This document shows, piece by piece, positions 1,036-46,576 of a stretch of 64,000 nt of DNA. Below the pieces are notes generated by a model. That model was not told where the DNA came from and did no database searches. It saw only the letters and a program-made list of their open reading frames with translations. Numbering within the stretch: position 1 is the first letter of the stretch; every line of letters starts with the position of its first letter. Origin of the DNA: Plumapathes pennacea (lineage: Eukaryota; Cnidaria; Anthozoa; Antipatharia; Myriopathidae); assembly GCA_964036295.1 (NCBI GenBank), contig OZ038471.1:8968684-9032683 (forward strand). Reading direction: 5' to 3'. Position numbers and translations under genes: made by a program.

Positions 1036-1039
1036 TGTA

Positions 1040-9720: not shown

Positions 9721-9756
9721 TAATATTATACCGCCTAATTGTATTATACCGCCTAC

Positions 9757-12330: not shown

Positions 12331-12331
12331 T

Positions 12332-12547: not shown

Positions 12548-13030
12548 TTTACTTGTATTAAGTTCATGATAGTTATTATTCCCTTATTCTCCAAAGGATT
12601 GTGCTCCTGCATGCTTTTGGTTGGAGAGTACGTTCCTACTTTTTCCTACAAGGTTTTGGGTTTTCGTACCAGGCAGGAGCACTTGATGAAGCTTATATAA
12701 CACAAAAGTAGGATAAAAAGGGCACACAATGAATAGTGTGCTGTATGATGATGATGACAATAAGATTAAGAATAAAAAAAATTGATGCCGATATATATGT
12801 TGTTTTCTTATTGGGTCAGAGCTTAGTAACACAAAGTTACTATATTTCAGACCACTCTTTCTCCTTTAAGTGTTCAGCACTTGGTATAGTACAAGTAGTA
12901 AAACGTTATTTTAACACGCTTGCTCCGTCAACTACAACAAGCTGGTTACATCAAAGGTCGTATAAAATAGACATTACTTCTATGTTTTCTTTTTTTTTTT
13001 TTTTTTTGCGTCGAAACTTCTAATATATGC

Positions 13031-13078
13031 CAGTGCAGGACGGAGTGAGGGGGTATCTGCGATTATCGTATTTCTAGT
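13031..13078 (-). repeat. Family A element, left-end fragment
   Basis: GGTATCTGCGATTATCGTAT followed by TTCTAG is the reverse of the family A left end (CTAGAAATACGATAATCGC). Only about 45 bases remain. Confidence 0.55.
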
Positions 13079-13377: not shown

Positions 13378-13504
13378 TGCTGTAAAGCAGATGATGAGTT
13401 ATTCTGAAGACATCGTTAACGTCAAGGAAAATAATGGATTTACAGCACTTCATCTGTCAGCACTGAGAAATGATGTTGACACTGCAATGATTCTTCTCGA
13501 ATGG
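13378..13504 (+). CDS. Roco gene exon: ankyrin repeat
   Basis: Acceptor TTGTTTTTAG, donor ATGG|GTGAGT. It enters with one base of a split codon and ends in phase 0. The frame gives NVKENNGFTALHLSALRNDV, a clear ankyrin repeat (G.TALHLSA core) with the second helix MILLEW. An upstream exon must supply the preceding phase-2 codon, but none was identified. Confidence 0.75.
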
Positions 13505-16500
13505 GTGAGTTTTCTCCTTGGTTTAGGCCTCAAAAACCTGTCACGAAACGTAATTTAATCAGGCATAATATGCTTATCTATAGTGTGACAGATCTCACAG
13601 TTTTGATCAAGTAAAGCACTGGAATGCAGTTCTGACCGCTTACTTTGGGTTTTATCATACCGATAAAGGTATTGGAAAAAAGGGCTGAACCGTTCTTTTT
13701 TAAAACGCGCCCGGCCCATAGGTAGAAGTTCTTGAGCAGTTTACTATAGACCGATTTCAGTCATTAATAAAATTGCCAAAATGTCACGTCTCATTTATCA
13801 TATTTTATGATCACTAAACTTTTCTCGAAATATTAAGCTGATTTTCACACCTTTTTCTCTACACTTTCCACATTTCTAAATACAACTACGAAATTGTTTT
13901 ATACTTAGTCCAAGTACAAGCTAGCTATGGTTTTTGTAACTACTCTATGGTTTTCGATATTGCTGACGGAACTGTATTGATTATATGCTATTTCTTTGTG
14001 TTTTGAGGGTTGCTGCGATGTTAAAGCTACAAGCCACGGAGGCGCAACTGCTGCTGACTTAGCTGCATCTGCAGGAAACGAGTTAATGCTTGATTTATTG
14101 GCTAACTACGATGCTGAAATACGTGATTACGTGAAAAGCATGGCTGGCAGTACATCAAGTGATTTACAGGTATGTATTGGCTACTGTGTCATTCAATCGC
14201 CTAGAATCTTTGATTTATCTAAGAACACAAAATTAAAATTGGCCAAATACTCCCCTACTTTTTTCATTAATAGAGTAGTTGCTGGAAGGCCTAAAATTAG
14301 TGGCGTTTCCTATTCTCTTTTCAAGAAAACGATGCAGTTTTAGCCTCATCCTTAAGCAATTGGTAATACTGTACAGTTTTCTAGTAAACCAATTGTTTGT
14401 GTGAAGTCAATAATTGTCCATTAATGTTGTGGTCTAGGGTTACTAGGGATACTAGGGATACTTTGCAGAAAGCGGTACAGGCTCAAGTAAACTGTGCGTT
14501 TACTTTAGGCTTGCTGACTCATCAAGGTCTGTTTCGCCGGTTAGTGTTCGTTATATTCCCGTAGTGGTATTTTGCCGGGAAACTAAGGCGAACTTTGCTT
14601 TGTGTTCCTGCCGCACTTTTCCGTGAATGAAACTCCAATGAACGTTACTTACAGTAGTATTTATGTCCTTTTAACTCGTGAATGCGAAGCATGAAAAAGC
14701 TATAGCTGTTGAGGGGACATTTTACTCAGTCCAGATAGCCATACAGTTAATAATTTCTAGTTTGGTCAAACAGTATGGACAGGAATACAGGTACAAATAC
14801 GGTCTGAATAATTTCAAACCAATGTGTGCGTGCATGTTACACACTTGCATGCACGCACGCACACTATGATACTACGATGACTATGATACTACGCGCTCTC
14901 TGATTGGTCAGAAAACCATTTTATAAATTAAAACCAAAGATGGAAATGACGAATCCTGAAATAGAGAAACTGCGAGTTGTCCCTCAGTCGGCTATTAGAG
15001 CAGGTAGTGAAGCCGCGTGCAAATCATGTGCAATTAGTGAAGCAGCGTGAGGGAAAGATGTCTGAATATTGCATGAAATTTATTGGAAACCGAAATGCAG
15101 CAATTACAAAGTCAAAGAACATTCTCCAAAGTTTCTAACCTATACACCTTTGTCTCCTGTGGCTCGTAGCCAGCCACTAGATGGCCTAGATCACCGAGGC
15201 GGCTTGGAAGATGTTAGGCCGAAAATATATTGCACTTCGGCTAAAAGAAGCGAAAAATATACCATTGCCTTTATTGTCAACAAAGTTCTTACAATATGCA
15301 AATTGGACGAGGCACTCGATATTCCCAAGGGCCACATGACCTTTCGAATTGCTTTTCTCTCAATAAATACATTTAGTGAATTTTCTGTTAAACAAAAATT
15401 GGAAGAGAAGAGAGCAAGGAAAAGTATATAGCTCTTGGATCCGTCATGTGCTAAAACTGACTCGGCTACCTTTGCCTCAATTTGCATAAAAACTTACGAC
15501 AAAATTTCTCACCTGGACCCCGTGCGTCCTTCCATTTTAATATGGTACTAAGTTCTTTTGGTCTTGACCCCACTGTACACTGACACTGCGAGCTTATTCA
15601 ATTTCATTAGCATATTCAATATGGCGAATGGAAGTGTAAACTTGAGCTCCAAGCAGATAGACTCCTGTGGGCCTGATGTTTGTTCTATTGATACCTCAAC
15701 GAAAGCTACAACTTCGACAGCTGTCTCCAGTCTAGATAAACCGAGAAGTAAGGCACCGTTAACGTTAGAAGGTCCGAAACGTGTTCCTGTTGCTTCGAGT
15801 GATCTGCGAACAGGACGAGCAGCCGATGAACCCGAAGTCGAGGAACCTCAGCTAAACTCTTCTTCATCACTATCGTGACAGGGAATCCGGAATGGCTTGC
15901 CAAATAGGTACACAATATTCAAGCGTAGGTCTTGTAGTGCTGAGATATACTTTGACAATATTTCTAGGATCTACCCCTGATCGTTTCAAAACTCTAAGGG
16001 AATACAACTTCTTACATGCTTTTTATAAATGTAATCCACGTGGTCGTTCCATCTAAGATCACTACTTAAAACTACTCTAAGGATCTTATAGGTGTTAACC
16101 CTTTCGATTGTGTCGTTACCAATAATGAGGGGCTGCATCGAAAAGTTATGATTAGTTATGATTATGCATGAAGTTGATAACCATCTCTTTGCATTTGGTT
16201 GGGTTGAGTCTCATTCCATGATCATTAGAGAAATTATGAATATCGGGTACAGCTGTATTAATGATGCTAATAGCGTTCCTTGGCAAGATCTCTAAAGTGG
16301 AAGTGTCATCTACAAATTTGATCCTCAGATGCCAGTCATGCAGGAGGTTATTTGTCATGATCGAGAATAGAATGACGCCCAGCTTGGTTCCTTGAGGAAT
16401 GTCTCCCTAGGGAGATTTCCATTCAGATAGAGAGTTTTTAATCCGGACAGCTTGTTTTCTATTGGATAGGAAGGCTGTAATTCAGTTTACAAGGGTATAT

Positions 16501-19500: not shown

Positions 19501-22500
19501 TATTTAGATATTTTATATTATAGCTAGTTGTACTTTTAGGATATCTTAGGTAGTTAGTGCACGGTTTACATGAAAACCAACTAGTATCTAGTATCTAGAG
19601 TAACAGCTGTTGATGTAATCTTCACCGTGGGTAAATAAAGGTTTCATTCATACTGGCAACCTCAATCATTGTTCATCTTGACACTCACCATGTCAATTCA
19701 TGAGAATATAAACTGCCTCGGCAAGAGGTTGTCAGTGTCCTTAGCCATGACTTTACTGCATAAAAGCGAATAACACTAGTTTGTATTGTCCTTATTTATA
19801 ACTAGTTTCTGACATCTAACAGACCCACAGCTTCCAAAACGGTGACCAAGTCGTTGTAAAGGCGGAGGGAGAGGCGCTAAAGGCTCTTCAGATAGGACAC
19901 GGAGGATGGAACTTTGAAATGTCTTTGGTTAGTACGTTAATAGCATGTACAGTGCGATGATACTATCTGTACGATGTACAGAAAACAACTAAGTGTAAGA
20001 AGATATTAAAGGCCAACCAAATCTGTGCGAAGAGAACAAAAGCTTAACCTTAAATAAACTTGTTGTTATTTCATTCTAATGGGTGGGTTCTCCAACCCTC
20101 TTTCATATCGGTAACATTGATTAAATTTTCATTGTGTGCCTTTTGTGCCTAATCATTTGCATGTCTCATTTTGCTCTTAAGATATGCCTTTTTCTCAACG
20201 TTATTCACTCTGAAGAAGTGAAGATTGATAGGCCTGATACATCATGTTTAATTTCGTTTTTGAACAATAAACTGCAGAGTTTGATTTTTTCGCGCATAAT
20301 TTTCACGAAAGGAATTAATATACAAGTCCCAAGTTCCGAGTGTTCATTTGGCAAAACATATAGCCAGACCGAAATTTGGACCTATGTGTACAAGATACTG
20401 CAGCCCGACGTGTAGTAATAAACAATCGCGGATCATATCTCGGACCACTTGCACGAGGTAAAGAATTTTCGTGTTTTTCTCAGCTTTGTAAATTAAAATG
20501 TTGCCAAGCCAAAAAGTTGTCACGGAAAATCCTAAGACTTATATAGAGTACCTAAACATCGTAAAATAGTTAAATGTACCGAATTACGGATTCAGACCCC
20601 ACCATATATATTGTGTCACACTCGCAACTACGAACTTATTACCAATTCAAATCATTCGTTGAAAAAGATTTTAAAGAGGAATTCATGTTTAGCGTACTAC
20701 AATTGTACACTAGTTTGATCTCTAATTCTTGTTTTTTATCTGATTTATTATTTGTGTATTATTTACGAGATTGCTAAAACTCAGTGGTTTTTCTTGTCTA
20801 ATTTTAGAATTAACAAGCTTTAGAATGTTGGGTTAGTTACTCAAGGTTTTAAAGTCCATTCAGACAATTTGTATGACACGAACTCAACATTACACCAGAG
20901 AAATGCTACAGTGTAATGAATTTAAGGCCTCGATAAAGGTTCGCGCGTTCCTCAAAAATATTCTCAGAAAAAAATCATGGTAGCGTTGCCATTTAAGATA
21001 TGTACACGTAAAATATATAGTTGTAGAGGTCCGGGACTGAAGAATGCAGATCTGGTATTACATTTTTCATACACGTTAAAGGTAGGGTGCGATCTAGATC
21101 AGATCGATGAAAGATTTTTGCGAAAAATCAGGTCTTTCGGGAAACAAAACTTTCGAGCATTTTTGTCAATGATGCTCAAATTTTCGTGAGCTGTAGACAA
21201 CACATTCTTCTCCAACGGTATCAGCGATTTTTGATGTTTTGTTTCGTTCATTTTTTGTTAGATGGTTTGTACAAAAAACGGGTCCTGAAACGCTCCCTCC
21301 ACTTTAAATGATAATAAATCCTTAAAACAAAACGGATCAAAATTTGCTGACACGCTATATTTTAGTCAACTTCACTGAGTAACAGAAAAAAAGTTTTTTT
21401 TCCGCCTCAGCATCATTGGAAGTTATTAACATTTCTCTTATTTATTATCCCAAGGTGTCTAAGAAAATTGGCAGTGTCATAGAAGTAATGCCTACTGGTG
21501 ATGTTTGCGTTTTCTTTGAGCATTTGCTCAAAGCGTTTGTTTTTAATCCTGCCACTCTCAAGCCTCACATATCTCAAGAGGATGACAGTACACCCGCGCT
21601 TGAACATACAGTAGCTGGTAAGGGACCTGTCATTGTCTGTTGTATTCTTTTGCGCGTGTAAAGGGACATCTTGTTAATGCCTTCTCCAGTAAAAAATATA
21701 CCTATTTATAGAATTAGCCCATCGACGAGCAAATCTGTGATTGCGGGCAATTGTTTTATCAGTTGTTCTGTCAATAGTTTATGAGCGCCAAAGGCGCGAG
21801 CTTTCAGGGGGTCCAAGGGCATGCTTTCCCAGAAACGGTTTGATGTTTGAGTTCATTAAATCTACGTATTGAGTATTTCGAAAACACAGGCGCGCTGCTC
21901 TGCTTCAGTTTTGGAAGGAAGTTCTTGTGAGCGGATGTGGGATGTGAATGTGGATGTGGATGTGAGAGGAGATTTGATGTTGAGCCGCGAAGGCATGAAT
22001 TTTTGAGACGAGGATAGGGGAGAATTTTGCCAAGTTCCTTTTGAGCAAAACTGAACGCTGTAGATCAGCCTTCTCGATTTACCTTTACAGTTGATAGTCT
22101 AAAAGAAAATGGTCATCATAAAAGGATCCCCCGTCTTCGTCGTTTCCTACGTGCCTGTCTCCCAATCTACTTTAGTGGTACGTCCTTCTAAAAAGAAAGA
22201 CATACTTGCCAATATCTCGACCTCGTAATAGCAAACTTAAATTGTTGCCCCAAAAACTTATTTCTTTCTGAAATGGCGTTTCCTGAATTTTCAGGGTACT
22301 TTAAATTTCATACAGTCCGGGACCCTTTTTGACAACCCATTTTAGTGCTAACTAGGTTACCCTGGTTAAGTAGCATTATTCTCTCAGCTCACCCTCATTC
22401 GTCCTCAAATATGAACTGAATGATTGCCCCATTCCCTTATTCCAAAGTCGAGTAAACTCCATGCCCCGCTCCCCCTCTCGCAAAATGAAATCGTCCGCCC

Positions 22501-23317
22501 CCTACGAAAAATAATAGCAGATCCTTAGGACCTACGTTATAAGAGGGGCTCAGACTTTTCGAGACTTCAATCATTTCGCTCCAAACTTCGAATTGTCAAC
22601 ATTAACGGCCAGTGCCGCTCTGATGTTTCAAATTACAAAAACAAAGCTTAGAAGTGAAAAATATTATTGTACAAAGCACTTTCTGAAGTGTAAATCTCTT
22701 AAAAGCCCACTATCATCCGGGAGCCTTGGCGCACTTGGGTAAATTTTTCATACAATCAACTATCTTTAAAGCGGACAATCTTCCTACTAGACAGTATATA
22801 CATTTTCTCTCGTACTGGTGTTTAGTTTTCCATATTTACCGTTTTTTTATCTGGCTGTCAGTCGCGGCTGAAATACAAATACACAAAGCTGTTGTCCGCG
22901 TTATAAATAATAACATTCCTTGTTCGGCTGCAGAGTAGACACCGTGGCAGTGTCAGTAACTCTGCAGTGCAATGTATTAATTAGAGGTCGCTGGCTGGAT
23001 TTTGCAGACCATAGTAAACACAATAAAATAGTGTAATCCTCTACTTCTTTTGATGTACAAATTTACATACAGTATAAGTTTGCTGACGAACTGAGCTGAA
23101 AATTTGGTGCCAATTGCTTGCCACAGAAGCTTGGCATTAATCACTCCTGAAAGGAATCATGCCATTAAATGTGGCATACAAATTGCTGGAAAACAAGGAG
23201 TGATTTTAACAAAAATCGCTCACGAGTGTTATTGAATCTTCATCACAAAACGTCTACTGGCTGGCACGCGGAAATGCCGCAACACTGTTGTGAGCACTCA
23301 ATGTCTAACAAATCACG

Positions 23318-23351
<34 letters not shown>

Positions 23352-26300
23352 ATCATTCGATTCATTCAATTGTTTTTCACAATTATTCACAAGATCTGTT
23401 AGGAAGCGCGCGCTGCTGAAACAACACAAAGAAGCCAAACGTACTCGTTCTCAGTTGAAAGCTTTTTTAATAAATACTCTCCCGACTTGAAAGTACACAT
23501 ACGTAAATTCAGTTTTTGTCAATAAACAACACTTAGATGTGTACATCACTCAGTTAAAAAGTTCAAAACGATCAAATACAAGCTTCATTGATCTTCAAAT
23601 CAGTCACTCCATAATCAAAAATCGACTTACTTGCCAAAAGTTAAAAGTGCTGTTGAAATAATTGTTAACTGTCTGCTGAGAATATTGGATACTCAGTTCA
23701 ACCTGTGCAGACCGAATCAGATCCCGAAAAGTGAGTCTTTGGTGTACAGATCGCCATTCTTCTTTCTGGCTTCGGTGTAAAACTTTCTTAAGACAGTCGC
23801 TACCTTCACTTTGGACGTTACCAGCTGCTCTTCCTCTAAGCTTCTTTCTTTCAAATATTGGCGAAATACACTAATAGTGACTTTTGTTGCTTTCTTTGTA
23901 TTGTCGCTGTTTTTTTGGTCGAGTAAACTTGCCAAATGGCTTTCTGACAGCTCGGGGAAACGAGCTGCTATGTTAACAATGGTGGGCAAAACTGCGCATG
24001 AGCAGAATGTTATTTGCAGCAAACATGTTGTAAACACTAATGCGCATGAGCAGACCATTATTTGTAGGCAGTTATTTGCAGGTGACGAAGTGATCTCTCG
24101 ACCAATCGAAGGGAAGGAAAAATTGAATCGCATGATAAATACTGTTAGTTGTCAGATTCCGGTCCAACCAGAATACACAAATAAACCACCGCAAAGGCTC
24201 CCGGATGATAGTGGCTACGAAGTGTGAAGTCGCGCGTCAGTTGTTGTCGCATAAACGCCTGATCAACCACAACAACACAAGCGATTGAACGGCTTTTCAG
24301 TCTTCGCGATGTTTGTCAAGATTGATAGATATGGCGTTTCGTTGCGGACAAAACTATATGAAACCGTATAAAAGTCGAGATTTGCAAAACATGAGTCGAG
24401 ATATGTAAACATTAGTCCAGACTTGCAAAACACGAGTCGATATGTGTAAAAAAAGAGTCGAGATTGACAAAAACACGAGTCCAGATTACTGAAGTTTGAG
24501 TCGAGAATTTTACATGGTGTGCGAGTCGAGATTTGCACGGTGTGAGTCGAGATATGCTGACCAGTTTTAATGCTGTCTCATCCGCATGCGTTCGAGACTG
24601 AAAATGGCGACGCGCTGGCTGCCAAACGTGGGTGATTTCTTTTTATTGGCAAGATTTACAGAGACTTCGGAGAGACAGTTAAGTTCAGCATCCTATGACA
24701 CTTCAGAATTCTTAATTCGTTGCTTTGATGAATACGAGAGGACGCTGTCGATATTGTTATCAAGTTTTGTGGAGACGAGGTCGTCAAAGCTATAAGAGAG
24801 TTTGTGTGGGAAATTACGAATGACCTGAATATACGCTCAAAGTACTGAAATACAATTATAAAAGTGCTTACCTACCCGCTTTTGTGTGTGTGATTTCTTG
24901 TGTTGCTGGGTTTTGGGCCAGGAGATATCACTATTGTTTTATATGTTAATTGGTCATTCCATTAATTTTCCGAACACCCATCCTCTCCCCCCCCCCCCCC
25001 CCCCCCCCCCCACCCCAACCCCCCATGGAAGACAAATTTTGAAACATCTGTGAAAGACCTCTCGAAATCCGAAAAAACACATATTGGATAAAACTTCTAT
25101 TGTTATTTTCAAAAAAATTAACCTGTCGGTATCGATATTTAAGAATTGTGTCCCCTCGGAAAAAAATTCTATCGTTATTCTTGGAAATTTGCCCCTGTCG
25201 GAATCTTGTCCTCCATAGGGGGGTTCGGATAATTAATGAATGACCCAATGAAGAAGAGAAGGTTGGAAACGTCAGCTTGTCAAGAATTAGACCGCCAAGA
25301 ACGGATCAAAACACGTCGATATACCGATATACCTGGATATTCTGTTTTCCCAGTAAATTCCTAACATTTTCAATGAAGTCTCAACCGATTTAATCAAGCT
25401 GAGGGCTATGAATCGCAATTTTGCGGCCACTTGCTCAAATCTGGCTGTATCAATATTGACTTCAGCTCGTATTATCCCCCATTCCTTGCATTCCCTGGGG
25501 ATTTGCCAGGACCTTTTCGGGGATTAGGAATTTGCAGAAAATCATTATCCCTCCGTTGGAATGACTTGTGTAATCACCACATGATATATAGTGAATTTGC
25601 AGTTAAATGAAATTTTTGAATCTGAGATTTATGCAGAATAATAATTGGTTTAAACCATACACTGTTAAATTTTTATTTGTAAGCGGTGCCCATGAACTAC
25701 AAGCTATACATTTAACTGTATGCTGTCTATAGAGCCCTGATACACCACAGCACTGTGCTTTTTACTGTATGCTGTACTGTATAGTGTTTATAGACAAAGA
25801 ATAGACAGCCCTTGTCTATACTGTTTATAGTATCTATGCTATCTATGGAGCCCTGATACAGGGCATCATGTTGTTTGTGTGTCTAAAGACACAATATAGA
25901 CAGCACTTTCGTCTATGCTGTTGGTGTCTCTCCGAAGTCTATAAATCTTGCCAATAAAAAGAAGAAATCACCCACGTTTGGCAGCCAGCGCGTCGCCATT
26001 TTCAGTCTCGAACGCATGCGGATGAGACAGCGTTAAAACTGGTCAGCGTATCTCGACTCACACCGTGCAAATCTCGACTCGCACACCATGTAAAATTCTC
26101 GACTCAAATTTCAGTAATCTGGACTCGTGTTTTTGTCAATCTCGACTCATGTTTTACACATATCGACTCGTGTTTTGCAAGTCTGGACTAATGTTTACAC
26201 ATCTCGGCTCATGTTTTGCAAATCTCGACTTTTATACGGTTTCATATAGTTTTGTCCGCAACGAAACGCTATAGATAGATACGAAGTTTACACAGGATAA

Positions 26301-29300
26301 CGTCACTAGTTAGAATAGAAACAGAACAAAAATGTCAACATTTGCCAGTCATAATGAAGGCTACGTACACAGTATGCATACCTGTTAGTGTGCATTCGAC
26401 CGGCCAAATGAAGAGAAACTCGCCTCGACACTAAATGCTTACATCGTGCTCTCTCAATACCCGAACATTTCCCACCGGTGCTCGATAAAACTGAATACTG
26501 TATGCGAAGAATTCAACAGAATCAGGAAAAAAAATTTTGAACTGTTTGAGTTTAAACTTTCCGGATCGCACACCCGGTGTATTAGGAATACGATAATCCC
26601 CTTGCCCTGTAGTGGACTTTCGGAAAGCCGGATTTTTGTCTATTTTTTGCTTGGAGATTTTTGATCGGTTTTTACAAACCATGGTTGTATAGCGACGTCA
26701 CCAGTCGGCCGTTAAAAGAATCATTGTCGCACAGTCTGGTTTAGTTCAGGCAACTTGCAAAGTGATGCATTTTCAAGTTTTTGTTGAAAAGCTAAACTCC
26801 AAAATTTACTGAGACTATTTTCTATACGCAACTGCAGAATACATCCGATAATGTATTGCAAGACAAGAAAAGCACATATATAAAGTTGATTTTCAGAAGC
26901 CGCTATTGCTCTAACCAAATACGTGTATGGTTTTTTACGTTATAAATTACGTTTCTTCGAGAATTTAATTCCGGCACACGAATTTAATTTCAGCAATTAA
27001 ATTCGACGTTACGGCGACGTCTAAATTGAATTATATTCGTCCAATGCGCATTATCCGTCATGGCCACACTGATACAACTTCTGAAATGCGTGTTTCATTT
27101 TGACGTCGCAGCAACGACGCATCGAATGAAGTGCAGAAACCACACGAATTATTTTAGCGGATAGCACTGAGAATGAAGGAGGATTCACACATGGAATTAA
27201 ATTTGTCTGCTTTAAATTCGTAGTATGAATTTGCGCGACATTTTACGTCGACTAATCTACGAAGTGAATATGAATTAAATTCGTGATTTTTTTTTCAGAT
27301 GAGGGTCAGATTGACACTTCGGTGTCGAATTGAATATAAAGCACATCAACATCTTCTGGCCTATTTTGAACCGATAGCTCGCCAATCAACAAATTAGGAC
27401 TGATCAGTTGCTTTGGATAATCCCAGGCATCCTGCGCGAAATTACCTATAGGAATCGCCTCTACAAACGCCATAAAAGCAATCTGGCACGTCCACATGGA
27501 AAGCATATAGAAAACAAAGAAATGCAGTCGCCTGAATGCCTTCTGCTGCGACGCCTCCAAAAATGCGACAAATCACGGAGAGTTTTGGAAGAAAATGAGA
27601 CCACTGCTTTTAAACACCGGTAGCGAGAAGCGCAGTGGACTTTACTCTCATTGAAAATGAGGCGACCATTACAGAGCCTTAGCAAATTGCTGAAATCTTC
27701 AACAAATACTTCGCTGAAGCGTCCAATAACGGAATACAATAGAGGAATACAAAGACCACCCAAATATAGGATCAATCACTGACAAATATCTTGTACAAAG
27801 ACTTTAAGTTTGAACCAGTCAGCACTGAATACATAAGAATAGTGTTGAATAAAATCGACCCAAGGAAAGCTGTAGGAGTTGACGGTATATCTCCCAGGCT
27901 ACTAAAACTGTCGGGCCCGGTACTAGCGGGTGAACTCACGCGGCTCATCAACTACTACAGTATGTCACCATTAAAAGCTGGTCAGTGGAATAGAAAGTTT
28001 GTAACACCACTCCAGTTTACAAGAAGGCCGACGAAACTACCAAGACAAATTATTGGCCTGCATCCGTACTCTCTGCTCTTTCAAAAATCTACCAAATATA
28101 CAGTGCTGACTGCCCAAACCTCTCCAAGGCTTATGGATTTAGTGAATCAGCTATTGAACTGATAAACGGATACCTATACGAGCGGCGCCAAAAATTTAGA
28201 CTCCGAATGGAGGACTGTGAAAGTGGGCCTTCCACAGGGATCACTGTTAGGTCCCCTTCTTTTTAATATATTTACCTTAGCGCAAGTGTGTCGCTACGAT
28301 TATACACAGATGACACAACGGGGTACTACGCTGATCACTTAGAATACACGATTAACAACGAGATGAGTACCCTTGCTGAATTGTTTGCATTGAACCAATT
28401 GTTAATAAATGCAACCGAAAACTCGAGCTCTATCAATGCGGCCTTCAACTTATAGTTACAACCTTGAATTAAGCAATACTCAGACTGAGATAAAGGACTC
28501 GCTGAGAATCCTTTGGCTCACCATTGATTCGATGCTCACTTTCAAGAACCACATTAAGGAGCAACTGAGAAAGGCATATTCTAAAGCTGGAGCGCTTTGC
28601 AAAATCCGACGATTTCTGCCACCAGACATAATGACACGGCTCTATAAAGCGTTTGTTCTCTCACATTTAGAGTACTGTGGCCCGGTACTAGTTGGCATCT
28701 CAAAGACTCAATCCAACAAACTGGAAGATGCACATTTTTAAATTCTTAACTGTTTGTTTGATTATTCTTATAATTGTTATACATTAGATGTTAGCTAGTA
28801 GATTCATAGACACGTGCGCGTTTTAAAGAGTCCCTGACTCCTATGCGTTATGTGTATAAATATATGATTGATTGATTGATTGATTGATTGATTACCTGAG
28901 TTTTTTAAAAACTTACCAGCTCCTAAAAGTCGTGGTGTTAGCTCTTTTTCAGTAAAAGATACAAAATCCAGAACATTCTAGTCTACATCTTGAATGGTTT
29001 CGAAAGATCAGTCCTCGTACAGTACGGAAATTCCAATTTCAATTGCATTGAGCGCTGAGCGAGTCTAGCCAAAACTTGGATCCTGTATAAAACTTCAACT
29101 CTGTAACGTCATACAGTGAAATTTGCTACGGTGATTGTTCGATTCGCACCGGCTGTGTTTTGCTTGTCCTTGCTAAAGAATTACCTGAGTTTCAACACAA
29201 TTTTGGCGACTGGGATGTGTTCAGGTTGGTTCCAGTCAATGCCTTTCAAAATAAGTAATGATAATGATGACAAGAGAGCTGACACAGCGTGTAGTCATGT

Positions 29301-40704: not shown

Positions 40705-40800
<96 letters not shown>

Positions 40801-43800
40801 TATAATTATAATATAATAATAGTAGTAGTAGTGATAGTAATAGAAATCGCTTTCAAAGCTTTCAAAGCCTCCTTCCAAAACCTCTAAAACTCTTGCCATT
40901 TTACCGTTGTACTGAAACCTATAAAGCCTTTAGACAGCTGTCTAGGTTTCCCCTTGGAATATTATCTGTAAACTGCAATTGGTTTGTAAACAACTGTGAA
41001 AACCACAAATGCGAGAAAATTATTCAGTTTGCTGCTTTGAATTCGCGCCGGAAAGTTGTGCATGGAAATTCAATTTTTCACTTCGCTTCTCATCTTCTTA
41101 TTGTTGAGAATCTTCGCTTTATATTTTGTAGCACATTTAGATTTATACTTTTCAAAAACTTCGCGAAGACATGAAGCGGCGGCCAAGTGAAAACCAGCTT
41201 TTCGTTAATCGACATATGTCGGCTGATAGAGAGCGAGTAACGTAGCCAATCAGACGACAGGATTAGCGTTAAGGCCCTTGAAAACGAATGCAACACGTTG
41301 GCATAACATAGCTCAACAGTGTTACCCAAAAACTTTTTGCGAAATTGTGCAGTGTTGTTGAAGTTTGCAACTATGAACCCGATAAAAATAGACGATGGAA
41401 AACGTTAAAATGCATCGAAATTGTTGCTCTTACCGTCACATGAAGTATTCGGTGCACTATGTTGGGCGATGTTGCGCCAACATGTTGCGTTAGTTTACTC
41501 TGGCAGTTAGACCATTAGATGATTTTTACTGATATTCTTTATTTATACTGCGCAACTAAAACAAAGTTTTCAAATTCGCATGTATGGTACGATTTTGTGA
41601 TATTACTCAATCATTTTCTACAGGATAATGAAGAAGATGACGAGGATGAGGAAGACGAGGACGAGGAAGACGAGGACAAGGAAGACGAGGACGAGGACGA
41701 GGAGCCGCCAGCTGAGACCGACCGACTACCTACTGATCAAGTCTTCAATGTCGGTAAAGCTTTTCCAGAAGTGATTCAAGTTGCAGAGCAAGCCGCAACA
41801 ACCGAAGAGTCGAAGTGGCTCGGAATCGACACCTTTGGTGAAGATGTTAGAGGCCCTCTCATTCAGTACTTGAAGAACCTGCATGTTGAAAAAGACACAA
41901 AGGCCAAGGAGACCGTAATGAGCATCTGGGACTTTGCTGGACAACAGTTGTATTACGCATCTCACTCTGTATTCTTGTCGCCCCAAGCAGTGTACGCCCT
42001 GGTTTACGATCTTAGTAAAGATCTAAACGCAAAGGCCGAGCCATGTGCGAAACAGGGGGTCCACAAAATACGGCTTGAAAACCCGAATGACGAAACAAAT
42101 CTCGATAACCTGCTGTCGTGGTTGGTATCCATACATGGTTCTCGCCTGGTAGACTCGGAAGGTCGTACTGAAGAGACCAAGAAGTATATTCGACCTCCTG
42201 TCCTTGTAGTTGGTACACATGCCGACAAAACGTCGACCAAAGAACAAGAAGACGCGGAAAGATGTATCCAGAAGAGCATATCAGATAAACCGTATGGGAA
42301 ACACGTGGTTGATGGTCCACTCTTCAGGGTAGACAACACTTGCTCGAGTGATGACGAAGGAGTAAAGAGAATTAAAGAGAAGATATGTGAAATCTTGAAA
42401 CTGGAGCCTTACATGGGGAAATATGTGCCTACGAAGTGGTTCAACTTCGAGAAGATCATCCAAGTTTTGATTGAAAACGGCATTCGTCACCGCAGCGTTA
42501 AAGAGCTTGCTGAAATCGCTAGAGAAGTTTGCTTCATCGATGACGTCGATGAAGTGAACGAGATGCTGGAGTTCTATCATAGTTTAGGTGAAATCGTGAA
42601 ATACGAAGAAACCGTTGTGCTTCAGACGACATGGCTGATTGATTTGTTCCGAAAAGTTATCACAGTTACTCCTTTTAATGAGCAGCCGGTGAGAACCCTG
42701 GTCTACTAACGTCATTGTCATCGTCATGCTTAAGTCATTGTCCTACCATTGATGTTACCGTTAGTGATATTGTCGCTGTTACTGTTGCTGTCCTGTCTCA
42801 TTGTAATTGTCATTTTTACTATTTATCATTTATCCCTAATTGTTCTTACTATTGTCGTTGTTATTGTCAGTGGTGTTGGTCTTTGCCATTGCAAGTGTTA
42901 CAGGACTTGCCCCTAATATTTTCTGTCGCTGTAGTGGTCCTAGTATTGGCCATTTCATTTTCATAGCAATTGTCCCCAACCATTGTCCATTTCGACATGA
43001 ATATATGTCACTGTGATTGACAATTTCGTGCCATGACTGGACTTGAAAGCGAAGGACTGAGAAAGGGTGTTACATTAGACTGCACGAACCGGTGTATGTT
43101 GTTACAATAGATCAACTTCAGTATGTCTATTTTCCTCGTTTTCTTACTTACAGAATGCCAAGTATAGAATGGAATGGAAAGAGCTTGAAAAGAGTGGGAT
43201 TCTCCGAATGGAATTAGTCGATCACGTGTTTGCAGAAATAAACACGGGGGATATTCAGAAACACGATCTTCTGGATATGATGGAGAGATTTGGTCTGGTG
43301 GCAAAGTTTCGTGAAGTGAAGGAAACCGACACAGAAAGCGTGCAATACTTCGTGCCGTCACAACTGAAGTCATCACCCGAGGGGTTAAAAACCGTTAAGC
43401 CAGGAAAGGATGATCCCTGTCCAATTTACCTCGACTTCACGGATGGATTTGTCCCTCATGGGCTCTTCCCGCAGATCGTGTCGCGATTGATCCGATGGTG
43501 CTCCGAACAGGGGTTTGCTCATCCACCCAACCTGTTCCAGTGCGGTGGCAGATTTTTCATCGGGAAACCAAATAGTCATGAGTTGATCCTTATCGCCGAC
43601 AAGAAGTTCATTAAGGTTGTCCTGAGGAGGAAGTCAACTGCATGCAGTACCTTGCCAAGAGGTGGTGGCACCGGTTGTAAAGTGGCATCTGAAGTTCTTG
43701 AACGCTTGCAAAAGACGCTGGAAGACCTTGCCTTTGAACAGAAAAGACATCGCGTGTGCTTTCAGTGGAGCGTGCTGTGCCCTCTGTATTTGGCTAAAAG

Positions 43801-46313
43801 CGATGGCGAAAGTTCAGATCTTGAAGAAAAACACTCCCACCTGCTACATGTTGAACCTAACAAGGAGCTGCACTGTCCTGAGGACTACAGTAATAAACGT
43901 ATCTCAGCAACTGGTTTGGAGTTTTGGTTCCCTGGCAGCCTGGGTTCGGTGGGTTGAATATGTTTTCCTTTACGTCGTTATTGCTGCTCTTGTTTTTGTT
44001 TGTTTGTTTGTTTGTTTGTTTTATTTTACTTTGAGTTACAGTCATTTGTGTCTGTGATGTGAAGTGACACAGCTGGTGCTCACGCACGACTCAAGCACAA
44101 ATACAATTATCAGCGCGCGCATTCTGGAAACAAGTCTGTTAGGTACTGTGCTAGCTATTTTCAACCTGCGTCGGCGCAGGTATTAAGTGCACGATGTGTC
44201 AGCCTAAGGTTGATGTGGATAAGCTTAACTCCGTAAAGAGAGGTTTAAGGTGGCTCCATCAAGGGTTTTGCAAATGCGCGTTTGTAAAACATTTCGAATA
44301 TGTATCCGCTCCGCTGTTTGCACATCAAGGTATGTCTTCTTGACATCAAAAGCTGATTTTGCACAGCTCGTTTTCACGGCTAGCGCATGCGCACTTGTCA
44401 ATCTTGTCGAGTCATTATTTTGCATTTGATGGCGCAATGCGCATGTAAAATATCAGGCTTCTCTTCTTGTTTCTCGAGTTTGCTTCGGCGAATGCGTCTT
44501 AAATTTTGAAGGCAAACGAAGATTATATCCGGCCTTGTCATATTTAATTTTAATGGAAATTTATCGAGCAGATTTATTTTTATTTGCAAAAAGCATAAAT
44601 TGTCAATTAGCTCGAGTCCGCCTTTCACAGTTACGCTTACCTTATTTGATATGAATTTCTAAACATACTGAAAGTTTCAGAAAATTTCATCGAACAGAAC
44701 CCCAGAAATTAGAGCAGAAAGTTTGAAAATGGTGTAAAAGACGCTTATTTAAGGTTTCAATAAAGGTTCGCGCGCCCATTCTTGAAAAAATCATTGTAGC
44801 GTTACAATTTAACGTACATGCACGTATTATATATCGTTGTAAAGGTCTTTGACGGCGGATTACAGATTGGTGTTAATGTGTTCAGGCACATTAAAGGTGA
44901 ATTGCGATTGAGGTTAATTTGTGAAAAGGAAACGAGAAACAAAACTTTTGTCGGTTTTATTTGAAAATGCTAAAACAACTTTTTTCTGATACTCAATGAA
45001 GTTGACTAAAATACCGTGTCGACGAATTTTGATCCGTTTTGTTTTAAGAATTTTTTTCTCTTTTAAAGTGGAGGGAGCGTTTCAAAACTATTTAATAAAA
45101 AATGAACGAAACAAAAATTCAAAAATCGCTGACACGGTATTGGAGAAGAAAATGTTGCCTACAGCTTACGAACAAATCGAGCAATATTGACCAAACCGCC
45201 ACAAGAGTTTTGTTTCCCGAAAGACCTGATTTTTTTTTCGAAAATCTTTCTGACCTAGATCGCACTCTGCCTTTAACGCGTATGAAAAATGTATTACTAA
45301 ATCTGCATTTTTCAGTCCAGACCTTTACAACGATGTATTGTACGTGTATATATCTTAAATAGCAACACTACAATGATTTTTTTTCGAGAATATTTTTAAG
45401 GAACGCGCGAACCTTCATGGAGACCTTAAAGGACGTATTATTTCCACAGAAACCATAGTGACAAACTAAAACGTATACGCAACAGACTATTTAAAAAATC
45501 CACCCTGTAAATTTGATCAACAAAGAAAATAAAGAATGAAAACATGACAGTTTTAGTGTCATAAGCTAAATAAAAACAGTGGCAGCGAAAACCCTATGGA
45601 GCCACCTTAACCTGACGTTTCCAACGTCAGCTCTTCGTCTGAGCACTCGCTCATTTTTTAGTCCAACAATTGGGCATCGGATCTGGTATGACCTTCTTCT
45701 AATTAGGAAGACTCGTTTCTACTCGTAAATCCACTGTTTCTTAGTTATAGATTACAGTTTGAGTACAATCGGTTTAGTGAGTCACGGTACAACAGACTTC
45801 AGCGGCAAGATTGCCCTTCTTTTTTATTGACTATCTTTGTTTTGTTTTTAGCTTGCACACACTATTCAAGACGGTTTGCCTGCTTGCGCGGAAATCAAGA
45901 GAGGTAGGCGTACAGAAATGATTTTGGTATCCAGTGTTTTTTTATCTTAGAGAGCTTAAAGCGAAATGGCCAAATGGTTACAAAACCCGTGCTTTGTAGA
46001 ATAATAACTTCATATTTAAAACACTACACTGCAGGTGAGCCTACTCTGCGAGAACTCGCTGTTCTCTCCACAGAAATATGCTCTTGCTGGGATCGGCTAG
46101 GCTATCAACTTGGTTTGGAGGCAGAAATAGAAGATATTACTGCCAACAACGTCCAATTCCCAAGCCCACAGAAAAAGGCATTACAAATGCTAATTGTGTG
46201 GCACGACAAAGGAGCTTCCTCGACATACGTGCAACTGTCCAAAGCTCTAACGCAAAGTAGTAAAGACCGCCTGGCACAGAAGTATTGCCAACAACAGGCA
46301 GACACGGCATTAG
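13378..46313 (+). CDS. Roco protein: ankyrin, MIB-type SH3_15, Roc-COR, Death
   Basis: Nine exons join in phase: 13378-13504, 14008-14169, 19823-19927, 21455-21617, 29419-29837, 41624-42688, 43154-43948, 45852-45903 and 46035-46313. They give 3,167 coding bases, about 1,055 codons, with no stop. Domain order is ankyrin repeats, a Mind-bomb-type SH3_15 domain, Roc GTPase, COR and Death. Every border has AG and GT. The first exon starts with one base of a split codon, so more exons lie upstream. After 46313 the gene either continues (phase 1) or ends by read-through at a TAA at 46361-46363; an AATAAA lies at 46577-46582. Roco proteins are large GTP-binding scaffolds, and MFHAS1-like members act in innate immune signalling. 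A Death domain suggests recruitment into apoptotic or inflammatory complexes. Function is inferred from domains; the exon join needs transcript support. Confidence 0.75.
14008..14169 (+). CDS. Roco gene exon: second ankyrin repeat and linker
   Basis: 54 codons, phase 0 at both ends; acceptor TGTTTTGAG, donor TTACAG|GTATGT. GGATAADLAASAGNELMLDL is a degenerate ankyrin repeat continuing the helix of the previous exon. The tail (EIRDYVKSMAGSTSSDLQ) is a polar linker. Confidence 0.75.
14170..16130. other. Intron sequence
   Basis: Part of the intron between the ankyrin and SH3_15 exons. Short unassigned frames at 15069-15431 and 15558-15878 show no family match. A GCACGCACGCACAC run lies near 14850. 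Nothing else is supported. Confidence 0.45.
16140..17515 (-). pseudogene. LINE reverse transcriptase, minus strand
   Basis: The minus translation begins at 17510 with MEKREVYNSLSSLKIDKATG and GPDGLPKKLLKDFD, the fingers of a non-LTR reverse transcriptase. The piece to VNPVPKVTP near 17290 is followed by an interruption of about 480 bases that includes a (TCAC)n run at 16841-16868. From about 16800 it resumes with KKDLRPISLTFTLAKVMEG, FANFSKSFDFIDH (palm motif A), GDIPQGTKLGVILF (motif B) and KFVDD (motif C, the YADD-type active site) at about 16310. Scattered stops within the palm make it inactive. Clade looks CR1/L2-like. It lies in the Roco intron, head to head with another LINE. Confidence 0.8.
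17518..19660 (+). pseudogene. LINE with internal RT deletion
   Basis: Endonuclease end: IYILGDLNRNFAGN, then after a frame slip RISDSTSTLIDVFITNVPD and HVGISDHSMIYGI. Linker: NHHLPWINSELKALM. Reverse transcriptase start: SPAKATGLDGIPPKLLIAAA. The frame then jumps near 18570-18610 straight to FADDTHTSVSGEELDS. The palm between FNLIMS and the ADD motif is missing. The gap is bracketed by two copies of GATGACACTCATACAT (18573-18588 and 18594-18609). The C-terminal part runs from LSTWLVANKLSLNVAKTEFM to GAQLWNSLPPELRTASSSR at 19420. A 3' tail ends in TAAATAAAGGTTTCATTCAT near 19660. Stops and frame changes make it dead. Confidence 0.8.
19823..19927 (+). CDS. Roco gene exon: SH3_15 domain, first half
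   Basis: 35 codons, phase 0 at both ends; acceptor ACATCTAACAG, donor TCTTTG|GTTAGT. NGDQVVVKAEGEALKALQIG and HGGWNFEM match the start of the SH3_15 domain of Mind bomb E3 ligases, where GD.V.V, LQ.GHGGW and a following M are typical. The second half is in the next exon. Confidence 0.8.
19928..20900. other. Intron sequence
   Basis: AT-rich, with no supported gene or repeat boundary. Frames at 20134-20415 and 20574-20777 lack features. Confidence 0.4.
20925..21405 (+). mobile_element. Foldback-type element, one arm
   Basis: From ATAAAGGTTCGCGCG at about 20931 the sequence parallels both arms of the palindromic element at 44757-45425. Shared pieces include TAGTTGTAGAGGTCC, GATCTAGATCAGATCGATGA and a CGCTCCCTCCACTTTAAA block. 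It ends just before the second SH3_15 exon. Confidence 0.5.
21455..21617 (+). CDS. Roco gene exon: SH3_15 domain, second half
   Basis: Acceptor TTATCCCAAG, donor GTAGCTG|GTAAGG; enters in phase 0 and leaves in phase 1. KKIGSVIEVMPTGDVCVFFE and AFVFNPATLKPH match the second half of Mind-bomb SH3_15 (G.VG.V....DGDV.V.F and W.FNP..L). The split codon g|aa joins it to the Roc exon as Ala-Glu-Arg. Confidence 0.8.
21618..22700. other. Intron sequence
   Basis: No gene seen. Purine/GT-rich stretch GGATGTGAATGTGGATGTGG near 21945. The rest is undistinguished. Confidence 0.4.
22707..24214. mobile_element. TIR element enclosing a Crypton-like fragment
   Basis: A perfect 21-base inverted repeat bounds the element: 22707-22727 begins CCACTATCATCCGGGAGC, and its exact reverse complement is at 24194-24214. 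The 1.5-kb interior holds the recombinase fragment on the minus strand at its right end. No clear target-site duplication was found. Cryptons normally lack TIRs, so the TIR and the recombinase fragment may have different origins. Confidence 0.65.
23680..24133 (-). pseudogene. Crypton-type tyrosine recombinase N-terminal fragment
   Basis: The minus frame contains FPELSESHLASLLDQKNSDN, TKKATKVTISVFRQYLKER and VLRKFYTEARKKNGDLYTKD. This pattern belongs to the N-terminal, DNA-binding-like region of Crypton-derived recombinase proteins (the family linked to the DUF3504/ZMYM proteins). The frame stops after SLFGI at 23717-23719 with TGA, followed in frame by FGLHRLN. An RFGL-type sequence is expected there, so the stop fits a CGA to TGA change. 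The catalytic part is absent. The first 55 or so residues of the open frame are hydrophobic, Cys-rich and probably not original coding. A short GCGCATGAGCAGA duplication occurs at about 23995 and 24041. Confidence 0.6.
24334..26269. mobile_element. Large foldback element with 343-base arms
   Basis: The left arm (24334-24676) and right arm (25926-26269) are near-perfect reverse complements, from GCGTTTCGTTGCGGAC to GACTTCGGAGAGAC. Each arm contains about nine degenerate copies of a roughly 21-base unit built on GAGTCGAGATTTGCAAAACA. The 1.25-kb centre includes a C25 run (24987-25011) and a CTATAGAGCCCTGATAC-type repeat (about 25715-25880). No transposase is encoded. The arms also contain an ATGGCGACGCGCTGGCTGCC stretch that is open on one strand but not convincing as a gene. 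Confidence 0.8.
24987..25011 (+). repeat. Homopolymer C25
   Basis: Twenty-five consecutive C residues, within a CACCC-flanked tract inside the loop of the foldback element. Length is likely variable or assembly-sensitive. Confidence 0.9.
26575..26935 (+). repeat. Family A element, left-half copy
   Basis: Starts near AGGAATACGATAATC and follows family A through CTGTAGTGGACTTTCGGAAA, TAGCGACGTCACCAGTCGGC and TACGCAACTGCAGAATAC. It is diverged and truncated on the right. Confidence 0.6.
26955..27295. repeat. Array of AATTTAATT/AATTAAATT motifs
   Basis: GAATTTAATTC, AATTAAATTCG and variants occur at least seven times in 340 bases, in both orientations, in otherwise mixed sequence. The role is unknown; it may be a subterminal repeat region of a transposon. 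Confidence 0.4.
27400..28895 (+). pseudogene. LINE remnant with (ATTG)n tail
   Basis: Pieces in order: a linker-like part (ITYRNRLYKRHKSNLAR, 27420-27540), RT fingers (VLNKIDPRKAVGVDGISPRL, about 27845-27905), a broken palm with GSLLGPLLF-like text near 28240, and a C-terminal part (EIKDSLRILWLTIDSMLTF and RRFLPPDIMTRLYKAFVLSH, about 28480-28700). The tail is seven ATTG units at 28866-28892. Several frame changes separate the pieces. CR1/L2-like by its tail and domain order. Confidence 0.75.
29107..29260 (+). repeat. Family A element, middle fragment
   Basis: GTGAAATTTGCTACGGTGAT followed by TGTTCGATTCGCACCGGCTG and TTTCAACACAATTTTGGCGA matches the middle of family A copies at 37436 and 51574 (reverse). 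Confidence 0.6.
29419..29837 (+). CDS. Roco gene exon: Roc GTPase P-loop
   Basis: Acceptor CTATTGCAG, donor AAGAAG|GTATGT; phase 1 to 0. A helical lead-in (IPAEIIARGAKAKEAYRKVL) is followed by IMLVGQDRAGKTSLKKSLLG, a G1/Walker A loop with GQDRAGKT. Next come STDGIEVDP (switch I-like) and EVDQVKNWQRLDE. This run is characteristic of MFHAS1-like Roco proteins of lancelets and cnidarians. The exon ends in a charged stretch (VELLKKEEENSEPSPRDF) that begins the large insertion before G3. Confidence 0.85.
30235..30340 (+). repeat. Repeat family D, second copy
   Basis: CACGGTGATTGGTTCATATT followed by ATCACGTG matches 6160-6200 (+) and 59730-59770 (-). It leads directly into the tandem duplication. 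Confidence 0.6.
30341..31588 (+). repeat. Tandem duplication, about 614 and 634 bases
   Basis: Unit 1 is 30341-30954 and unit 2 is 30955-31588. Both start AAAGTTAACTGCATCCCAT and end AACACATAAGTAGTGAAGCG. Unit 2 has small insertions (near 31027 and 31105) and a run of A near 31455. Each unit carries a short open frame with GICTDKLD-like or LAFTAEALRIAVNK text that I do not recognise. High similarity suggests a fairly recent duplication. Confidence 0.85.
31900..32300 (-). repeat. Family A element, right half, reversed
   Basis: GAGACTCCAAGCAGGTCGCC at 31944, then GTTCGTCTGTCAGTCTGGCG and pieces matching 51290-51560 (AGATGCAGATGCAAAGCCAA; TTTGCCA; CTTCTTCAGAAAAG). It is followed at 32524 by the left half in the opposite orientation, so the copy is rearranged. 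Confidence 0.6.
32524..33140 (+). repeat. Family A element, left half
   Basis: Begins CTAGAAATACGATAATCGCA, continues TAGTGGGTTTTCGGAAAGCG and TCGATCGACACCAAAATTTT. It ends with GATTCAATTTTGAACACAAC and ACCGCGCTTGACGAATTTAA, matching the reverse of 51590-52170. Confidence 0.7.
33166..33245 (+). repeat. Short direct duplication
   Basis: AGGTCCGATTGTACTGAGCG near 33174 repeats as AGGTCCGATTGTGTTGAGCG near 33221, about 47 bases apart. Each copy is followed by AGC(A/C)AA. Confidence 0.6.
33246..34550. other. Intron sequence
   Basis: No gene is supported. A GC-rich patch at 33880-33960 repeats CGGGG(T/A)TTGCTGGG. The segment 33990-34550 may be the 5' flank of the Helitron-type remnant. Confidence 0.35.
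34556..35145 (+). pseudogene. Second Helitron-type N-terminal exon, broken
   Basis: Shares its plan with the exon at 9960. An acidic/polar start is followed by RLQRRREQARLRRSRETSQQ and RCIRLERRRQ. After a one-base frame change in an A run near 34760 come RETTQEREERLKANRQW and SRGWANPDNPALYEQP, then a stop at 35056. The cysteine block and the MDPG..ELQ.L signature are deleted, yet the sequence still ends CAAGGGGCAG|GTAAGA at 35145, the same donor context as at 10941. It therefore lost most of the 3' part of the exon and kept the splice site. Confidence 0.7.
35146..36850. other. Intron sequence
   Basis: AT-rich (about 70 percent) with no coding features. Possibly remnants of the intron of the Helitron-type element. 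Confidence 0.4.
36855..37250 (+). repeat. Repeat family E: GTCTGAAATAGGGTA array
   Basis: At least six spaced copies of GTCTGAAATAGGGTAT or variants occur, with spacers of about 25-50 bases and a GCACGGCAAATGGAAGAAAA block near 37060. The same array, reversed, is at 57165-57560 including the same block. No coding potential. It is a dispersed repeat of unknown type. Confidence 0.8.
37400..37880 (+). repeat. Family A element, right half with internal duplication
   Basis: A reversed left-end tag (ATATCGTATTTCTAG, 37413-37427) is followed directly by the right half in forward orientation: ACGGTAATTGTTCGATTTTC, GGCCAGTCGATGCCTTAAAA, GTACGCCAGACTGGCAGACG and CGACCCGCTTGGAGTCTCC. A 45-base block starting ATTCGTTTCACGGCTA is tandemly duplicated (about 37569-37660). 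Confidence 0.7.
37966..38111. mobile_element. Palindromic element, about 146 bases
   Basis: The two halves are reverse complements with few mismatches: TGCGTCTATCGAGTTATGGA opens the left arm and TCCATAACTCGATAGACGCA closes the right. The loop is near GGCGTAGCC at 38035. It could form a long hairpin. Palindromes with this GTTGCTCGAGGC centre are common dispersed elements in anthozoans, from memory of such genomes. Confidence 0.8.
38112..39275. other. Intron sequence
   Basis: No supported gene. A stretch AAAGTTATGGAGCACGCTCT near 38980 weakly echoes the palindromic element. The frame 38475-38702 has no family features. Confidence 0.4.
39280..39805 (-). pseudogene. LINE C-terminal fragment with 3' tail
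   Basis: Minus-strand reading gives FKVKNNLCPAYIQDLF, FLIPRYDTVT, then in another frame YGKHSIRYLGPLLWSKLSAS and VRTIPTIKKLSKS. This is the C-terminal region that follows the RT in L2/CR1-like LINEs. The 3' end has AATAAAGTTATTATTATATT-like tail sequence at about 39270-39295. One frame change near 39640 inactivates it. Confidence 0.65.
39808..40095 (-). repeat. Family A element, left half, reversed
   Basis: From GTGACGATTCTAATTTGCGC through GTAGTTGCGTGTAGAAAGTT and GAAAACCCACCTACAGGGCG to GATTATCGTATTTCTAG. Colinear with 51855-52170. Confidence 0.65.
40670..40830 (+). repeat. (AAT)n/(ATT)n microsatellite
   Basis: About 20 AAT-type units switch near 40737 to about 20 ATT units, giving a self-complementary tract, then end in short AGT repeats. 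The long poly-isoleucine open frames here are artefacts of the repeat. Confidence 0.95.
40831..41620. other. Intron sequence
   Basis: End of the intron before the large Roc exon. No gene or repeat recognised. Confidence 0.4.
41624..42688 (+). CDS. Roco gene exon: acidic insert, rest of Roc, start of COR
   Basis: 355 codons, phase 0 at both ends; acceptor TTTTCTACAG, donor CAGCCG|GTGAGA. Residues 1-27 are almost all Asp/Glu. A linker follows, then SIWDFAGQQLYYASHSVFLS (G3, DxxG, at about residue 103), AVYALVYDLSKDL, LDNLLSWLVSIH and PVLVVGTHADK, where THAD stands in the G4 position. From about residue 255 the COR domain begins (GKYVPTKWFNFEKIIQVLIE, VNEMLEFYHSLGEIVKYEE, VVLQTTWLIDLFRKVITV). 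With the previous exon, G1 and G3 are about 195 residues apart, far more than in a compact Roc domain. Confidence 0.9.
42689..43153 (+). other. Intron
   Basis: Intron within the COR region; TTG/GTC-rich, with no other feature. Confidence 0.7.
43154..43948 (+). CDS. Roco gene exon: remainder of COR domain
   Basis: 265 codons, phase 0 at both ends if the donor is GGTTCG|GTGGGT. It starts YRMEWKELEKSGILRMELVD, typical of COR, then LLDMMERFGLVAKFRE and QYFVPSQLKSSPEGL. Next come YLDFTDGFVPHGLFPQIVSR and NLFQCGGRFFIGK, and it closes with ATGLEFWFPGS. The donor is chosen because it keeps phase with the next small exon; read-through would stop at 43955-43957. Confidence 0.85.
43991..44022 (+). repeat. 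(TTTG)n microsatellite
   Basis: Seven TTTG units just downstream of the COR exon, in the intron. Confidence 0.9.
44245..45610. mobile_element. TTAA-bounded inverted-repeat element with inner foldback
   Basis: The left end TTAAGGTGGCTCCATCAAGG and right end CCCTATGGAGCCACCTTAA are inverted copies, each with TTAA at the outer edge (44245-44248 and 45607-45610). TTAA boundaries suggest the piggyBac superfamily. Inside, 44757-45425 is a second palindrome: AAAGGTTCGCGCG at the left arm is mirrored by CGCGCGAACCTT at the right, with arms of about 160 bases. No transposase is encoded, so the element is non-autonomous. It sits in the Roco intron between COR and Death exons. Confidence 0.75.
45852..45903 (+). 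CDS. Roco gene exon: small linker
   Basis: Acceptor TTGTTTTTAG, donor AAGAGAG|GTAGGC; phase 0 to 1. It encodes LAHTIQDGLPACAEIKR. It is called because both borders and both phases fit between the COR and Death exons; it has no domain of its own. Confidence 0.55.
46035..46313 (+). CDS. Roco gene exon: Death domain
   Basis: Acceptor ACACTGCAG, donor CATTAG|GTGAGT; phase 1 to 1. The frame starts GEPTLRELAVLSTEICSCWD and RLGYQLGLEAEIEDI, helices 1 and 2 of a Death domain. It continues with QKKALQMLIVWHDKG (helices 3 and 4, with the W typical of the fold) and YVQLSKALTQSSKDRLAQKY (helices 5 and 6). Death domains assemble by homotypic contacts in apoptosis and inflammation complexes. If not spliced, translation ends at 46361-46363 after about 16 more residues. 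Confidence 0.85.
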
Positions 46314-46576
46314 GTGAGTATCGAAATAAAACAATATTGCTGATTATGAGGCAAACAATATAATGTAGTACTCTAGTTTACTCTGCACCTTGCCCAAAAT
46401 GAAGTTTTTATGTCAAATGCTTATTTGCAAGTTCAACTGAAGAGCTCACTTTTCTTAACTATGTATTGCGTCAGCGTTTAATGTACTCTCGTCTAACATG
46501 GTCTTTTTTAGCCAATCATGTTGAGTGTTCCATTAAATGGTCCTCTTTTTGTATTGGCTATTTTGTGAACTAGAGT

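Follow-up and report, generated by a model that had tools for sequence, protein, structure and literature searches.

Ankyrin repeats precede the Roc domain in DAPK1 and follow SH3_15 in Mind bomb proteins, and MIB1 uses its SH3_15 repeats to bind the tails of its ligands. Roc-COR constitutes a nucleotide-dependent dimer switch (PMC6337361, PMC4104024), and DAPK1 represents the Roco group that carries a Death domain (PMC6337361). Actiniarian Novel Gene 3 (NG3) is described from transcripts of three sea anemones that combine Pkinase and SH3 domains with a central Roc/COR and with Death and TIR, a similar set being reported for oyster and centipede, in which 'neuralized' replaces the kinase and SH3 (PMC5094078), and a placozoan ROCO expansion comprises at least 17 genes, with CARD, Death, SH3, TIR and LRR domains around Roc-COR (PMC4104024).

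Here we analyze a 64,000-nucleotide stretch of the Plumapathes pennacea genome (hereafter the window; C10:8968684-9032683 of a 290-Mb assembly), in which a sequence-only reading had proposed a composite gene with ankyrin repeats, a Mind-bomb-type SH3_15 module, Roc-COR and Death. That domain order was borne out in our model, and the Roc GTPase is directly followed by COR, which places the locus among the Roco proteins. As in DAPK1, Roc-COR is accompanied by a C-terminal Death domain, and the ankyrin repeats would stand before Roc through a putative join; unlike in DAPK1, SH3_15 lies between ankyrin and Roc, and no DAPK-type kinase was noticed by eye before the ankyrins of this 5'-incomplete model. 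The window does contain a kinase C-lobe fragment, at 946-1519 (+), in two overlapping frames. It is a kinase carried by a repeat: nine contigs hold copies that are at least 70% identical, of which many are interrupted by stops and one, at C3:10575302, is open (91%, 283-aa frame). Its role as a DAPK-like first exon is unlikely, since the window's own frame ends in a stop and many of the copies bear stops.

With NG3 (PMC5094078) the locus shares Roc/COR, Death, an SH3-type domain and another module, the SH3_15-Roc join being putative, and it differs in having ankyrin and SH3_15 where NG3 has kinase and SH3. No TIR was recognized by eye between the Death domain and the next gene. The latter, an open frame at 48956-49438 (+), begins with what looks by eye like a Death fold and contains a P-loop NTPase, with an NB-ARC match (0.0013) below cut-off. 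Mind bomb proteins (MIB1/MIB2) have in common with the window the SH3_15 repeat (48.5 bits, 67/67 positions) and the ankyrin repeats; unlike them, the window model has one SH3_15 instead of two, and its ankyrin repeats come first. MIB_HERC2 gave no match in the joined model, whose 5' end is incomplete, and no RING was found in the window or in C10 8.7-10.2 Mb among the 150 of 219 candidates that were scored. Within that same set, RING matches were located near three other SH3_15 loci (C9, C6 and C10:4.78 Mb), and two more at C10:10.74 Mb, around 65 kb beyond the nearest SH3_15. Identity as a Mind bomb ligase was discarded for lack of a RING in the window within this set. SH3_15 itself is MIB1-like, its closest solved structure being MIB1 (PDB 4tse, 9.1e-11), and a ligase role is unsupported. 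An LRRK-type kinase after COR is absent, COR being followed by Death and the stop with no kinase match, and LRRs of the MFHAS1/LRRK type before Roc-COR gave no match in the joined model, incomplete at its N-terminus.

These comparisons limit what can be considered new. The idea that the modules are usually seen apart was half wrong, given DAPK1 and the recurrence of Roc-COR-Death in this genome, and the term 'undescribed' can hold only for the N-terminus, because Roc-COR proteins with Death and further domains are already published (PMC5094078, PMC4104024). An ankyrin-SH3_15 version is not among the placozoan ROCOs named in the available part of that report (PMC4104024), and the ankyrin-SH3_15-Roc-COR-Death combination was not found described in the open-licence literature.

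Exon structure and domain content

The plus-strand model was rebuilt over 13378-46363, with nine exons and eight phase-compatible junctions in a single frame of 1071 codons that ends with a TAA at 46363, in agreement with the previous description of nine exons with compatible phases and no stops. The interval given then, 13378..46313, does hold the exons, with the amendments that exon 1 starts mid-codon and that 46313 is only a donor-like site within the open frame of the last exon. Ankyrin repeats are encoded by exon 1 (13378..13504; 2 nt owed at its start, ending in phase 0; Ank_2 and Ank above cut-off) and exon 2 (14008..14169; phase 0-0). Since exon 1 opens mid-codon, upstream coding sequence must be missing from the model; splice-site candidates were obtained 5' of the ankyrins, none convincing as an exon. 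SH3_15, the Mind bomb repeat, is split between exon 3 (SH3_15-a, 19823..19927; phase 0-0), which carries its N half and has weak splice scores (0.2 and 0.0), and exon 4 (SH3_15-b, 21455..21617; phase 0-1), with the C half. The intron that follows (21618..29418), the candidate link between modules, spans 7.8 kb, an ordinary size at a locus where the intron within Roc has 11.8 kb. Exon 5 (29419..29837; phase 1-0) contains Roc with the P-loop GQDRAGKTS, exon 6 (41624..42688; phase 0-0) an acidic stretch, the remaining Roc with DFAGQ and THAD, and the start of COR-A, and exon 7 (43154..43948; phase 0-0) the rest of COR-A and the region after it. Exon 8 (45852..45903; phase 0-1) is a tentative 52-nt linker; a 46-nt linker with the same phases was seen by eye in a relative, p4. 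Exon 9 (46035..46363) encodes the Death domain and the stop. Its acceptor was set by eye at 46035 from paralogues p1 and p4, and the start at 45951/45953 of the first models was dropped after that comparison. Codon-bias scores of exons 1-4 are low (1.4, -2.1, 5.2 and -1.1), codon bias being too weak as an exon finder for short exons.

In Pfam searches all five domain types (ankyrin, SH3_15, Roc, COR-A and Death) exceeded the curated cut-offs. With the first joined model, which had eight exons and the older Death boundary, the matches were Roc (58.4 bits, 1.1e-15, cut-off 27), SH3_15 (48.5 bits, 1.1e-12, cut-off 24), COR-A (37.1 bits, 3.6e-9, cut-off 35.3) and Ank_2 (31.0 bits, 3.8e-7, cut-off 27.3). 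Death was absent from the E<=0.1 matches to that whole model, and was obtained with its own open frame (25.8 bits, 1.2e-5, cut-off 22.6) and when the final model was searched from COR to Death (23.5 bits, 6e-5). In the final model Roc reached 60.6 bits and COR-A 39.5 bits. The domains split by introns scored better once joined: SH3_15 rose from 16.9 bits with SH3_15-b alone to 48.5, Roc from single-exon pieces of 35.6 and 28.5 bits to 58.4, and COR-A from 26.7 and 13.1 bits to 37.1, being above cut-off only when joined; by themselves, exon 5 matched Roc (2e-6) and exon 6 both Roc (1.2e-8) and COR-A (5.6e-6). Exons 3-4 therefore behave as one unit and exons 5-7 as another. The join contains the GTPase motifs GQDRAGKTS, DFAGQ and THAD, and the closest solved structures to Roc are 4wnr, 3dpu, 6hlu and 8r4b, from bacterial Roco proteins, together with LRRK2.

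Roc-COR-Death copies and their upstream domains

At E<=0.001, COR-A was detected in at least 63 places of the genome. When these were compared with the Death matches (the best 150 of 257 candidates), 30 of the 63 had one downstream on their own strand at a distance of no more than 8 kb; neither the COR-A nor the Death of the window is among the places listed. The pairing controls gave 0/63 on the opposite strand, 1/63 upstream on the same strand and none in three shifted controls, so that Roc-COR followed by Death is a common build in this genome. The locus thus belongs to a large Roco family with a shared Roc-COR-Death chassis, and the front end of the window copy is probably the ankyrin and Mind-bomb-type binding module.

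The domains found upstream of Roc differ between copies. HEPN_DZIP3 (3.3e-35) and CARD_2 (9.1e-16) precede it in p3, where a second near-identical CARD_2 frame was also listed, and KH_1 (7.6e-10 and 5.2e-8) does so in p4, a similar frame being present before p2. Copy p5 has the end of a kinase (8.2e-6) and an SH3-like frame without a Pfam match, while p6 shows half an SH3_1 (0.0014, below cut-off) and frames called kinase-like by their similarity to p5. At locus E, CARD_2 (1.7e-7) lies 7.9 kb upstream of Roc; in all, 3 of 22 CARD_2 places, at two loci, are by their coordinates followed on the same strand by a Roc-COR copy no more than 9 kb away. No upstream domain was recognized by eye in p1 and p7. 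Splicing of these upstream domains to Roc would in each case be a candidate join, except at L004, where LRRs share one open frame with Roc-COR. Such joins gain support from the NG3 transcripts, in which other domains are combined with Roc/COR and Death (PMC5094078).

The way into Roc is the same throughout: by eye, the domain opens at a phase-1 acceptor in 14/14 copies inspected (the window, B, E, p1-p6, L001, L002, L003, L005 and L008, with p7 left out). Because it starts mid-codon in every one of these, an upstream coding exon must exist. Phase-1 donors were found in SH3_15-b of the window, in the linker exon of p6, in the CARD exons of p3 (best score 4.5) and, weakly, in CARD of locus E (2.1), and by eye a distant SH3_15-b exon, at L036, ends in a phase-1 donor too.

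Duplicate loci

The block that contains the locus is a patchwork of recent duplications. Copies of exon 1 are located at C10:8825643 (91%), 11400461 (91%) and 9923403 (78%), and those of exon 2 at C10:8826113 (88%), 11399789 (84%) and 9918624 (77%). Locus B (C10:11.36-11.40 Mb) is 93-96% identical to the window in the main blocks, introns included, in a comparison that leaves out 7 kb in its middle. It carries ankyrin and Roc-COR-Death and lacks SH3_15, along with the segments corresponding to 19440-23461 and 26582-28823 of the window, and bears a TAG as well as two 1-nt indels, one an insertion and the other a deletion. Being a segmental duplicate of the window, it was discarded as independent support for a single gene. 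Two stretches of the window, 17196-19419 and 26582-28823, hold frames that look reverse-transcriptase-like by eye, with no Pfam match at 0.001 in the four frames scanned. Another one, 9680-13077, is an insertion missing from B, with a 342-aa frame matching DUF6570 (1.7e-19).

Locus C (8.83 Mb) matches the window at 97% up to 21669, and then in pieces up to 27730 plus repeats. It retains all four ankyrin and SH3_15 exons, the latter 99-100% identical in DNA, and no Roc appears there among the matches listed. Locus D keeps the same exons at 77-83%, and Roc is likewise missing from the 9.8 kb examined downstream of them. Also downstream of D, at L035 ~4111-5249 (-), two overlapping frames have a Rep/helicase-like look by eye. 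At locus E, C3:6258033-6260216 corresponds to exons 6-7 of the window at 94-95%. Its Roc-COR is 93-95% identical to that of the window, which the locus matches, repeats aside, from 27355 onward, that is, from inside the SH3_15-Roc intron; no ankyrin-SH3_15 was detected there, nor Death among the matches listed. The match of C ends and that of E begins within 21618-29418, so the breakpoints of both fall in the intron between SH3_15 and Roc. At a larger scale, C10 8.77-8.84 and 8.95-8.99 Mb are duplicated blocks ~150-170 kb apart, in which the copies of SH3_15, ankyrin and kinase are spaced in parallel.

Linkage between SH3_15 and Roc

The preferred interpretation, to which we assign a probability of about 0.55, is that all nine exons would belong to one gene, in which ankyrin-SH3_15 is spliced to Roc-COR-Death through a phase-1 intron serving as an exchange point between family members. 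The nearest recognized phase-1 donor exon upstream of Roc is SH3_15-b, and a scan for internal exons of at least 60 nt over 21.7-29.4 kb gave none with coding support. As rival first exons, six short stretches from an ATG to a phase-1 donor lie between SH3_15-b and Roc, none with notable coding support; Roc may have a short separate first exon. Agreement of phase at this junction would be expected by chance in one third of cases. The low codon-bias scores of exons 1-4, the near-neutral changes in ankyrin and SH3_15 given below and the absence of SH3_15 from locus B count against the single gene. In its favour are the need for a coding exon upstream of Roc, the agreement in phase, the absence of a rival exon of 60 nt or more with coding support and the build of the relatives, and the join put forward earlier is plausible in this respect.

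The main rival, somewhat less likely, is that two neighbouring genes were juxtaposed by segmental duplication: an ankyrin-SH3_15 gene, which would have putative 3' exons of its own and come from a family arranged in tandem on C10, and a Roc-COR-Death gene whose first exon is short or unrecognized, for which the stretches just mentioned would be candidates. SH3_15 occurs in 27 places of the genome, of which 11 are true Mind bombs, at three loci that also have RING matches close by, one is on C1 and 15 are on C10 between 8.77 and 10.95 Mb. Only the window's own among these 15 has a Roc match nearby (in the best 150 of 311 candidates and in another set of 43 scored out of 1126), and the 14 without a listed Roc, copies C and D included, speak for two genes. 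The same is true of the listed Roc-COR copies, which, apart from the window and B, have no nearby ankyrin-SH3_15 match among those listed, of the distant SH3_15-b, which runs on in phase 1 into something that is not recognizably Roc over 1.3 kb, and of the duplication patchwork itself. Against this, besides the result of the exon scan, C is a 97% copy that fragments after SH3_15-b, so that its absence of Roc may reflect a loss. Moreover, a comparison of the window with 5.6 kb of C, 9.8 kb of D and 1.3 kb of L036/L037 gave no exon shared after SH3_15-b, setting aside what C has in common with the window in the adjacent flank, in repeats and in parts of the intron; a common exon in that position was rejected for the stretches compared.

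The frame could also be open merely through youth, in a recent duplicate that is decaying and yields no stable protein. The lesions of sister copy B would fit with this, and changes in the ankyrin exons between the window and B (7 nonsynonymous to 1 synonymous) and in SH3_15-b between the window and D (7 to 3) look near neutral in these alignments. However, across its nine exons the copy in the window is free of stops and frameshifts, and it keeps the Roc motifs, and pN/pS against the older paralogue p1 is 0.47, 0.32 and 0.55 for exons 5, 6 and 7, respectively, p1 itself having stops and gaps in exon 7. We consider such decay very improbable.

Proposed mechanism and concluding remarks

If the nine exons do form a single transcript, the ankyrin and SH3_15 modules might act as a target reader, recognizing either a short motif or a partner protein. 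Binding would then shift the GTP/GDP state and the dimerisation of Roc-COR, the predicted GTPase, and the resulting dimer or oligomer could gather Death domains and recruit Death-domain adaptors, with cell-death or immune signaling as the presumed output. At the level of the family, we tentatively propose, as a possibility of lesser standing than the join itself, that Roc-COR-Death may be an NLR-like receptor chassis, with dozens of copies in which the switch and the Death output are common to all and the sensors (ankyrin-SH3_15, CARD, HEPN-CARD, kinase-SH3, KH or LRR) would be swapped by repeat-driven recombination in the conserved phase-1 intron upstream of Roc; the window would be a fresh case, given the near-identical copy E with another front end.

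Should the join be true, the locus would provide a Roco front end not found described in the open-licence literature. The family makes the proposed exchange at one conserved phase-1 intron directly testable. A GTPase-dimer-Death module that has multiplied while its N-termini changed would give this animal, in addition to NLRs, a second repertoire of receptors inside the cell.
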